Source of the DNA: Sulfurovum sp. XGS-02
GTDB taxonomy: Bacteria > Campylobacterota > Campylobacteria > Campylobacterales > Sulfurovaceae
NCBI RefSeq assembly: GCF_023213175.1
Contig: NZ_CP093312.1
Coordinates: 2,108,001 to 2,172,000 of the forward strand
Length of the DNA: 64,000 nucleotides
Direction of reading: 5' to 3'
Shown: one piece after another, positions 20,158-22,658 of the stretch
Position numbering within the stretch: position 1 is the first letter of the stretch
Layout: each line of letters starts with the position of its first letter
Made by a program: the position numbers and the translations under genes
The notes under the pieces: generated by a model
What the model was told of the DNA's origin: nothing
Seen by the model: only the letters and a program-made list of their open reading frames with translations
Database searches by the model: none

Positions 20158-20283
20158 AAACCTTATAATCTAACATATTTTATAACGTTTCCCGCTATAG
20201 CGTTGTTTGCGAGCCATAAAATCTACCCCTTCAATAGAAAACCTTATAAAATGTTCCATATTGGAATGTTTTATAAGGAAAAC
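20158..20283. repeat. CCTTATAA repeat, long composite copy 4
   Basis: About 126 bases with the same plan as the copy at 52215. A left part holds AACCTTATAATCTAACATAT, a linker ends in CAATAGAAAA, and a right hairpin (20242-20278) pairs CCTTATAAAA with TTTTATAAGG around a variable centre. It lies between the czcA terminator and the first attC-like site. Confidence 0.8.
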
Positions 20284-20398
20284 TATCAAAAGAAGTGTGA
20301 TCTAAAAAAGTATAAAAACAGATGTTTCAATTACATGAAATCGTTCGAGTATAGACAATTAATTGTGCTATAATTTTTATCTATCGGTGACACAAAAT

Positions 20399-20459
20399 TC
20401 TGAACGGTCTCAAAAGCCACCTGCGGGTTTTTGATTGGTCTCCTTTGATTTGTTATGTG
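20399..20459 (-). repeat. attC-like site A, after the abiV cassette
   Basis: Read on the minus strand it begins CACATAACAAATCAAAGGAG, shares AATCAAAAACC with site C, and ends near ACCGTTCAG. A weak internal hairpin pairs CAAAA with TTTTG. Its right boundary lacks the GTTAT seen in site C, as expected for the last site of an array or a decayed one. Confidence 0.7.
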
Positions 20460-21034
20460 TTTTTAATTTGTTCGAACAGGGCATCGGTTATGTCGTCCAT
20501 TTCATATGTGTGATTGGTGACTCCAACTAGCGCATCATCAAATGCTTCAATTGCAAATAAGACTAAAGACCTCGCAAGCTTCTTGTCTACTTTCTCAGCT
20601 GGTATAGTTAAGCTACCGTTTTCTCTTTGGAAATACAGTGCACTTTCTCTAGTTTGGACAAAACCTGAATTGTGTGCCAGATTCATTATGCGCTGAAGCT
20701 CTGGACTTCCAAGAGCTTCGTTTAAACGTTGCGCCACTGTAACAGTCGGCAATGCAGCCATTTGATGCTTTGTTCTATGATCTCGGAATATATTACGCCC
20801 ATTTTTTTCTGGATGTTTTCCATCAGTAAAGGAACCAATGTGTGCCTTTGCAATTTCTTCACATGCACTTATACTCAAAAATGCAGAAGTTGGATAGCTA
20901 CCATTCATGTATAAAGTACATGCATCTTGAATAAGCTGAACTATATGGTCAACTGCTTTGTTAAAATCATCAACACTTTGAATAAGATTTTCATCCGTTC
21001 TTACCATGCTGCTGATAAGTTCAAATACTTCCAT
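20453..21034 (-). CDS. abiV: AbiV family abortive-infection protein
   Basis: 193 helical residues. SAFLSISACEEIAKAHIGSF near residue 50 and the following FRDHRTKHQ match the HEPN_AbiV family. The lactococcal member stops phage growth by blocking translation after infection. The stop codon lies within attC-like site A, as in a typical integron cassette, and site B lies just upstream. No promoter was found between them, so it probably depends on read-through along the array. The family is clear; activity in this host is inferred. Confidence 0.85.
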   Translation of the reverse strand: MEVFELISSMVRTDENLIQSVDDFNKAVDHIVQLIQDACTLYMNGSYPTSAFLSISACEEIAKAHIGSFTDGKHPEKNGRNIFRDHRTKHQMAALPTVTVAQRLNEALGSPELQRIMNLAHNSGFVQTRESALYFQRENGSLTIPAEKVDKKLARSLVLFAIEAFDDALVGVTNHTYEMDDITDALFEQIKNT

Positions 21035-21051
21035 AGTAGGTTCTCGCTTTA

Positions 21052-21119
21052 CACATAATGTTTAAAATAAGAAATAAATTAGCCGCAGGATAATTTATTT
21101 CTCTCCAATGATTTGTTAT
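21052..21119 (-). repeat. attC-like site B
   Basis: On the minus strand: TATAACAAATC at one side, CATTATGTG at the other, and between them a perfect 11-base stem GAAATAAATTA / TAATTTATTTC with a 9-base loop (21071-21101). Single-stranded folding of this kind, with little primary sequence shared in the stem, is the hallmark of attC. Confidence 0.8.
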
Positions 21120-21789
21120 ATTTTTCCCTAATATTTACAATGATAGGAGTAACTAATTTTGTTATATATTCTCTATCTTGATCACTCCCACTAAATCCAT
21201 ATGACATAGCTATTGTAATTATTTTAGCTTGTTCAATTAATGGGGCAATCGTATAAACATAATTTTCAATTTCTTGTTCACTCCACAAATCCCCCTCTAA
21301 GTAATAGCTTGATTTATTAAATATATCTAAGTCTAAGTCTAATATAATTTTTTTATTGCCTATAGAGTGTATTAAGTCTTCAATTTTATCATGGATGTTT
21401 TGTTTGGCACCATAATTAATCAATAAGCTTTCATCTAATCCAATTTCTGTATCTGTTTGAAAACAGTGAAAATCCACTCTATTTACATAACCTCTAATTA
21501 TTGATGGAGCAATGAAAGAATCCTTTCTAATATAGTTTTCTTCAATAAGTACATCCTTCATCGTTTCTAGATTCATATCTTTGATTATAGACTCATCTTC
21601 TTGATAGTCATTTATCGCATCCCAATGATAATCTAGATGAACTAAAGTAGAAGGAATATCGTTTTCTTCTCTATATAGTTCCCAGCAATACAATGACCAT
21701 TTGTGATTATCCATAATCCATATATTTGGGTATATTTCCTCAAAATATTCTTCATTATTTGAAAAAATTATTTTATTGATATAATCCAT
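21079..21789 (-). CDS. UPF0489 family protein
   Basis: 236 residues from MDYINKIIF; AAGGAAG precedes this ATG, while the upstream extension runs into attC-like site C and is not used. IWIMDNHKWSLYCWEL near residue 22 and LVHLDYHWDA near 48 are the UPF0489 signature, and KKIILDLDLDIFN near 140 adds an Asp-rich motif. This resembles metal-dependent arginase-like folds, but the biochemical role is unknown. The gene ends inside attC-like site B, so it is the second cassette of the array. Confidence 0.85.
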   Translation of the reverse strand: MDYINKIIFSNNEEYFEEIYPNIWIMDNHKWSLYCWELYREENDIPSTLVHLDYHWDAINDYQEDESIIKDMNLETMKDVLIEENYIRKDSFIAPSIIRGYVNRVDFHCFQTDTEIGLDESLLINYGAKQNIHDKIEDLIHSIGNKKIILDLDLDIFNKSSYYLEGDLWSEQEIENYVYTIAPLIEQAKIITIAMSYGFSGSDQDREYITKLVTPIIVNIREKYNKSLERNKLSCG

Positions 21790-21800
21790 CAACTTCCTTA

Positions 21801-21872
21801 GTATAACGTTTAAAATGACCAATCAAAAAGCCGCTTGCAGGTTTTTGATTGATCTCCTCTGATTTATTATGC
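21801..21872 (-). repeat. attC-like site C
   Basis: The minus strand starts GCATAATAAATCAGAGGAG and ends AAACGTTATAC. Between them is a perfect 10-base stem CAATCAAAAA / TTTTTGATTG (21820-21829 with 21842-21851). The outer ATAAT/GTTAT pairing and the total of about 70 bases fit integron attC sites. Confidence 0.8.
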
Positions 21873-22328
21873 CGCGATACTCCGTTTTTGCGGAAGCAAG
21901 AAGGCTCCGAATAGCATCCCAAGCACTAAGCCAACAATGATTGCCGGAAGGCCAATAGCAATATACCATCCTATACCCAATACAATATAGGCACTCAATA
22001 GACCAGAGAGCACAGCTCCCACGATTGCAACGCCTAGGTCAGGCATCTTGAATCTCTCTAGCAGGCGGACTAACCCAAATAATACGAGTGCGATGATGAT
22101 TGCATAGATAGAGAGAAGCAGTGCCCATCCCAGTATGTATACTGTATTGCTTAAGAATTCTTCCCAGGAGAGCGAGAACGGTTCAGCATACCATCCGGGG
22201 CCAGGTCTGTCACTATAAGCGAGATAACCTGCCACTGGCGAGAGAATTAGGAAGAGAGTGGTTCCCCCAACGACCACGCCCAAGTACATTGCTACTGTCT
22301 TCAGCAAATCAAGTGATATCCGCTTCAT
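21867..22328 (-). CDS. Four-helix membrane protein in an integron-like cassette
   Basis: 153 residues with about four hydrophobic helices (near 12-32, 63-88, 97-120, 122-145) and little else. The ATG has GGAGAG before it and the stop codon is in attC-like site C, so this is the first cassette of the array as transcribed. No family is recognised. The GC-richer sequence differs from the AT-rich neighbouring cassette, which suggests a different donor. Confidence 0.75.
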   Translation of the reverse strand: MKRISLDLLKTVAMYLGVVVGGTTLFLILSPVAGYLAYSDRPGPGWYAEPFSLSWEEFLSNTVYILGWALLLSIYAIIIALVLFGLVRLLERFKMPDLGVAIVGAVLSGLLSAYIVLGIGWYIAIGLPAIIVGLVLGMLFGAFLLPQKRSIAA

Positions 22329-22490
22329 TGAGTCTCTCTCCGCATAATTATTTATTCAACAAACACTTTATACAAAACATTCGGAAATCCCTATGATAAC
22401 CAACAGAAAAAATGTGTGTTTATTGGATAAAACTTCCTCTTTTTAACTATTTTATACCAAAAATGATAAAAATTCCTAAAATACATCAAA

Positions 22491-22658
22491 ATGCAATGTG
22501 CCATTTGCCCAGAAATTGGCGATATTTGTACAAAGTGTGGTTTATCGGGAAAATATCGGGATAAAACCACAAAGTGTGTGTTTATTGGAACTGACACTTA
22601 TGATTTTTGCTCGCCTTGTTTTTTAAATACCATAGCGCCCTATGGAGACCCGCAATAA
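22491..22658 (+). CDS. Possible small cysteine-rich protein
   Basis: A 55-codon frame with three CxxC pairs (CAIC, CTKC, CSPC), as in a zinc ribbon. No ribosome site is seen, and it overlaps on the other strand a small membrane-peptide gene that has one. The coding of KCVFIG is repeated just upstream at 22410-22427 in another open stretch that ends at once, which hints at a partial duplication. Treat it as a candidate only. Confidence 0.3.
   Translation: MQCAICPEIGDICTKCGLSGKYRDKTTKCVFIGTDTYDFCSPCFLNTIAPYGDPQ

Follow-up and report, generated by a model that had tools for sequence, protein, structure and literature searches.

An integron in Sulfurovum sp. XGS-02 that keeps its attI site and three cassettes, one with an AbiV gene, and lacks the integrase gene

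Clusters of integron cassettes that lack an integrase gene are usually read as dead leftovers. Three routes to such clusters (CALINs) have been proposed, with loss of the integrase gene, intI, among them (PMC8618304). Campylobacterota were already counted among the integron-bearing phyla (PMC8618304), and CALINs have been reported in Sulfurovum sp. NBC37-1 and Sulfurimonas autotrophica (PMC10295459, Table 1). Integrons in this phylum are therefore already known. In the literature that we searched (open-licence papers only) we found nothing on integrase-less or orphan attI sites, or on the turnover of cassettes at solo attI sites of intI-less genomes, which is the pattern described below.

The locus studied here lies in the single-contig genome of Sulfurovum sp. 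XGS-02 (2.19 Mb, 99.8% complete), within a 64-kb stretch at positions 2108001-2172000 (the window, in whose numbering coordinates are given unless stated otherwise). It is an integron that has kept attI and three cassettes, one of them carrying an AbiV anti-phage gene, and from which the integrase gene is missing. The original prediction described an integrase-less, CALIN-like cassette cluster. Its sites are real and no IntI was found, but it overlooked the attI and the roughly 240 bp of upstream DNA that the array has also kept. Its further remark that cassettes are rarely noted in Campylobacterota did not survive comparison with other genomes: 89 of 397, spread over 28 of 68 genera, carry attC sites of the same type, and the phylum had been listed earlier (PMC8618304; PMC10295459).

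attC sites, cassette cargo and the truncated end

Read along the minus strand, the array runs attI, gene 3 (22328-21867), site C, gene 2 (21789-21079), site B, gene 1 (21034-20453), site A, and both position and strand agree with the predicted collinear arrangement of one site behind each of three genes. The stop codons also lie in or at the sites as predicted: genes 1 and 3 stop in the R'' box, while gene 2 extends across the 5' arm of site B to a stop within the stem. Sites B and C proved to be genuine attC sites. They were scored with R1, a covariance model of nine full attC sites from the same-genus genome G001 and from Aliarcobacter that contains no window site. Site C (21804-21869, minus strand; R'' TAAT, R' GTTA) reached 71.9 bits (E 3.6e-13) and site B (21056-21118, minus strand; R'' TAAC, R' ATTA, with the crossover G changed to A) 70.7 bits (E 6.8e-13), in a hold-out that is not fully independent because the seed sites were located through their similarity to the window sites; the correlation with IntI given below is independent. 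Nothing else in the 64 kb scored at E 0.05 or better. A covariance test of the kind suggested with the original prediction, here with R1, was passed by B and C at more than 70 bits each, and site A reached only 20 bits (E 0.09).

The perfect stems of differing sequence that had been predicted were recovered for site C at 10 bp, and the sequences do differ, but the stem of site B measured 12 bp rather than 11. The outer boxes common to B and C are present as TAAC/T...G/ATTA. Site B has AAC, with ATT for GTT; site C has AAT for AAC and keeps GTT; site A has AAC and has lost R'; both box ends, AAC and GTT, are present in the attC relatives from outside the window. In the consensus, TAACAAATC..GGAGA-stem-TTTTAAACGTTA, the layout is that of attC, with outer boxes and an inner stem that varies from site to site and has constant ends. 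Single-strand folding compared with shuffled sequences was strong for B (z -3.0/-4.2) and weak for C (-1.8), with no signal for A; given the weak statistics for C and A, folding alone is insufficient proof of the sites and we do not rely on it. An Rfam search of the 64-kb window matched only one tRNA. In blastn searches with the region, Aliarcobacter plasmids matched at the sites only, and the genome G001 carries such sites too.

Cassette 3, the first after attI (21807-22347, minus strand; bounds inferred from the attI and attC crossover points), holds a gene (21867-22328, 48% G+C) for a predicted membrane protein of 153 aa that falls in no known family; the one match in a search for close relatives, at 34% in Salinimicrobium, is uninformative. 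Cassette 2 (21059-21806, minus strand) encodes a protein of the UPF0489 family (gene 21079-21789; Pfam PF12640, E 1e-11; 28% G+C). Its start was taken as ATG on account of the crossover position and a nearby AGGAAG, the TTG at 21822 falling inside attC C, and a plasmid search with this cassette gave no match. Cassette 1 (20412-21058, minus strand; 38% G+C), which is cut at its attC, encodes an AbiV abortive-infection protein of the HEPN family (gene 20453-21034). The differing G+C contents of the three genes point to different sources. The AbiV assignment is supported by HEPN_AbiV (Pfam, E 1.1e-19), PADLOC AbiV (237.8 bits) and NCBIfam TIGR04498 (105.7 bits against a cut-off of 27), and the protein has two motifs of the RX4-6H type, RNIFRDH and RIMNLAH. 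AbiV is present in only 2 of the 397 Campylobacterota genomes. The other copy (G167, 34% identical) starts directly after an attI and has its stop codon in TAACAA, and its position right after attI is as expected of a travelling cassette. A plasmid search with AbiV returned mostly Enterococcus and Listeria at less than 60% identity. The AbiV gene is probably the useful cargo of the array, with a predicted function in defence.

Only the 5' half of site A remains (20412-20455, minus strand). It matches an Aliarcobacter plasmid attC and a G001 attC up to 20412; the 5' half is intact (ACATAACAAATCAAAGGAGACCAATCAAAAACCCGC), and the 3' half is replaced from the 20411/20412 junction. The replacing DNA begins with a terminal inverted repeat (20386-20411, no strand assigned; one copy in the window), which reads GAGACCGTTCAGAATTTTGTGTCACC leftward from 20411 and in G014, G016 and G002 adjoins transposase genes (Transposase_mut, PF00872, E 4e-106). 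Because the repeat lies next to such genes elsewhere, we conclude that the end of an IS256-family element truncates the array inside site A. To the left of this end, at 20158-20295, lies an interspersed repeat, about 140 bp long (AAACCTTATAATCTAACATATTTTATAACG...TTTTATAAGG), which occurs in many copies across the genome and genus; just 23 bp separate one of these copies from the solo attC at 687.8 kb. The left boundary was also considered as an empty target site common to a Sulfurovum mangrovi plasmid and this was rejected, the shared piece being the IS256-family end plus the interspersed repeat.

The attI site and the search for an integrase

The array is headed by an attI site at 22344-22394 (minus strand), with the core AATAAATAATTA at 22356-22345. 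It is the sole match in the 64 kb (29.4 bits, E 7.1e-8) to R2, a sequence-only model of 26 integrase-linked attI sites that were preselected by core pattern and from which the window was excluded. The crossover falls between 22348 and 22347, and the usual G at 22348 is an A. The interval from intI to the first cassette closes with AATAAATAGTT[A/G] in complete integrons of this genus, family and order, and GTTGAATAAATAATTATGCGG lies directly ahead of gene 3 in the window. In blastn alignments the window site is 69-92% identical to integrase-linked attI over 36-148 bp, and it contains GTATAAAGT in the place of ATATAATGT. In most aligned copies a TATAAT-like box lies inside attI (GTATAAAGT in the window), and a promoter consensus scan was not clearly above shuffles; the cassette promoter appears to lie within attI.

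Upstream of attI, the region at 22349-22586 (minus strand) forms a unit that is conserved at other attI copies of the genus and ends about where a complete integron has the start of intI. It is 76-80% identical over 231-244 bp to DNA in G001:C126, G442:C16 and G444:C28, with different flanks beyond, and shorter homology ties it to the integrase-bearing attI regions of G378, G350, G227 and G262. The unit ends within about 15 bp of the same point in three flanks (that of the window, one with a LysM gene and one with a Sel1 gene), which is better explained by a unit moved or copied without intI than by three deletions. A second place in the genome, at 686.3-687.9 kb (G000:C1), consists of a partial attI, which aligns with the integrase-linked attI of G442, G410 and G015, a gene of 466 aa and a single attC scoring 57 bits. 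Both cassette-bearing places of this genome are therefore headed by attI and without an integrase.

The original prediction saw no integron integrase, and we agree: across the 2.19-Mb single contig, to which this absence applies and outside which any plasmid of the strain would fall, the best match to TIGR02249 reached 60.8 bits against a cut-off of 265 and represents Xer-type recombinases. When 25 Campylobacterota IntI proteins were compared with the window, only a distant tyrosine recombinase was found, at 824-1933. Two genes, of 924 and 553 aa, come after this distant relative of IntI (best 40.9 bits), which may be part of a separate mobile element. No credible remnant of intI lies beside the window attI (best tblastn E 0.15), which is why loss of the gene in place is something that we infer rather than see.

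Solo attI sites across the Campylobacterota

Among the 397 genomes, R2 matched attI in 124, from 39 genera. IntI scored above its curated cut-off in 34 genomes, and 39 had a match at E<=1e-60. attC was present in 34 of these 39 and in 55 of the other 358 (Fisher p 6e-20), and attI in 38 of the 39 as against 86 of the 358 (p 2e-20). This tie to IntI does not depend on the choice of model seeds and speaks for the identity of both site types, and in other genomes the same type of attC stands in arrays beside IntI. Most genomes that carry attC or attI sites are nevertheless without IntI, and the 86 attI-bearing genomes among the 358 compare with about 4 expected by chance (E<=0.01). At the best 30 attI loci we found four long intI genes (that of G016 shortened at the C-terminus), five fragments and, at 21, no trace of intI; attC follows within 1.5 kb downstream at about 16 of them. 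Fragments adjoin a kept attI in several genomes of the same genus (31 aa and 166 aa of the N-terminus in G001 and G448; 153 aa and 40-48 aa of the C-terminus in G427 and G244) and also in G373, G386 and G369, and show that intI has been deleted with attI retained in other species.

Several further arrangements of these sites were observed. The Aliarcobacter/Arcobacter plasmids pAFAEC (L029), pCNAC48 (L030) and p133_LEO_107 (L031) carry attC and several attI sites interleaved, with no annotated integron integrase. Their sites adjoin genes for a Tn3 transposase and a serine recombinase, the cargo includes DUF2971, DUF262 and HNH genes, and pCNAC48 has several resistance genes elsewhere. The attI region is duplicated locally in G016 (L184) and G430 (L197), at 99-100% identity over 0.5-1.3 kb and with different downstream DNA, and such duplication is a possible origin of solo attI copies. 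On a Sulfurovum mangrovi plasmid (L008, 5190-5290) an Imm27 gene follows DNA that resembles the upstream half of attI (tatactcttaatgctgaaacaataaggacactttgttct), the core being missing. Finally, GC-rich stretches between attI and the first gene (L099, 18.4-18.7 kb; L097, 8.38-8.53 kb; L114, 2.71-2.9 kb) have attC-like ends, for example GTTGCCTCGG...CCCCCGTTATG, and no obvious gene; they are perhaps non-coding cassettes.

A picture of apparent turnover comes from five species of genus g38 (G206, G270, G230, G257 and G133), in which attI lies 0.2-0.4 kb past htpG (HSP90). The DNA upstream of this attI is 86-92% identical among the five, and homology stops at the crossover, where mean identity falls from 0.89 in the last 60 bp to 0.49 and then 0.41. 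Downstream are five unrelated genes, encoding an HNH endonuclease, an HAD phosphatase and three proteins without a clear family; in G230 the next gene encodes a DUF255 protein, which in G206 and G270 is preceded by attC. None of the five genomes has an IntI over the cut-off, and the three that are single contigs lack even a weak match (E 1e-12). A comparable pair is formed by G001:C126 and G442:C16, which have the window-type attI and flank in common (77% over 1.3 kb) and different first cassettes, with an intact IntI of G442 on another contig. The solo attI sites of G187 and G140, similar by blastn, were rejected as an orthologous pair for want of alignment at the crossover. Shared flanks with different cassettes are what a trans-acting integrase would leave, and replacement of alleles or later loss of the integrase may do so too. 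This pattern suggests that cassette exchange continues at solo attI sites, possibly served by a trans-acting integrase. Tentatively, and short of an even chance, the phylum may possess a decoupled system in which solo attI sites with built-in promoters, at chromosomal places and on plasmids, are loaded and reloaded by a trans-acting or visiting integrase, exchange going on even in integrase-less species.

Origin of the locus and comparison with known systems

We consider it highly probable that the locus is a degraded chromosomal integron, in which cassettes were inserted at attI, the integrase gene was then lost and the array was cut by an IS256-family element. An integron integrase would have inserted the three single-gene cassettes at attI, at the right end on the minus strand, recombining it with the folded single strand of the attC at the end of each cassette, and the attI-proximal gene would have been the last to arrive. 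The integrase gene would subsequently have been lost (as opposed to the array arriving without one) with attI and about 240 bp upstream remaining, and the IS256-family insertion has cut the far end inside the third attC. The changed crossover bases in attI and attC B, together with the R'' change in attC C (T for C), would make recombination weaker still. By now the array is expected to be fixed in the genome, its genes presumably being read from the putative promoter in attI.

The strongest rival holds that this attI has had no intI of its own since reaching its present spot, and is instead a dispersed capture site loaded by an integrase elsewhere in the cell or on a plasmid. The differing cassettes at the htpG sites and at G001:C126 and G442:C16, the 21 of the best 30 attI loci without intI and the 240-bp unit in three different flanks all speak for it. 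Since the genome now has no intI an outside source must be assumed, and allele replacement by homologous recombination, or intI lost elsewhere after the exchanges, could produce this picture too; we regard this rival as quite possible, if somewhat the less probable side of the question. Off-target insertion into an ordinary chromosomal GTT site (attG), giving a CALIN without attI, is among the proposed routes (PMC8618304), and such insertion by IntI1 is described in work cited in PMC12901181, but it is contradicted by the attI homology at the upstream end, which extends far past the crossover triplet (51 bp in R2, and further in the blastn alignments), and is very unlikely here. That chance or unrelated hairpins, such as terminators or interspersed repeats, happen to lie behind the three genes might be read from the missing half of site A and from a fold of site C only mildly better than shuffles, but is contradicted by the scores that B and C obtain from outside sites and by the IntI-linked arrays, with the stops falling in the sites and no terminator prediction coinciding with them, and its probability is negligible.

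In this genome the locus is most likely a remnant that has become fixed and still has its attI. The wider interest lies in the phylum-wide set of solo attI sites. The clusters described here keep a well-preserved attI, and a single chromosomal spot in five integrase-less species holds a different gene in each. Should an integrase acting in trans still be loading solo attI sites, integrase genes would mark only a minor share of the loci at which cassettes move, and most of these loci would be overlooked by a search starting from intI. With so clean a signature at the crossover, the old question of CALIN origin and continued mobility is open to direct testing, and the phylum concerned counts among its members food-borne Aliarcobacter that bear resistance plasmids.

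Like a CALIN as categorised by IntegronFinder, the locus has at least two tandem attC sites in the same orientation (B and C, 0.7 kb apart on the minus strand, with A partial), single-gene cassettes and no intI nearby or elsewhere in the 2.19-Mb contig searched; unlike a CALIN, it keeps attI and its upstream region, and an IS256-family end truncates the final attC. An attI heads the array as in a complete integron, from which the lack of an intI gene sets it apart. With the sedentary chromosomal integrons of Campylobacterota (IntI, attI and an attC array; G274, G227 and G327) it shares the attI core, the attC type and the orientation rule, and it differs in its missing integrase gene, its three cassettes only and its changed crossover base. 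The Delta-attI cassettes of class 1 and 2 integrons (PMC12901181) likewise place attI material away from its position beside intI, but there a partial attI replaces attC downstream of a gene and intI is present, whereas here a full attI heads an intI-less array. Insertion at attG also yields cassettes at a chromosomal place without intI, but the site here is homologous to attI beyond the GTT triplet. Finally, cassette 1 resembles the AbiV system in its HEPN_AbiV domain and full-length PADLOC match and differs in being an integron cassette in a Campylobacterota chromosome, with a predicted function.
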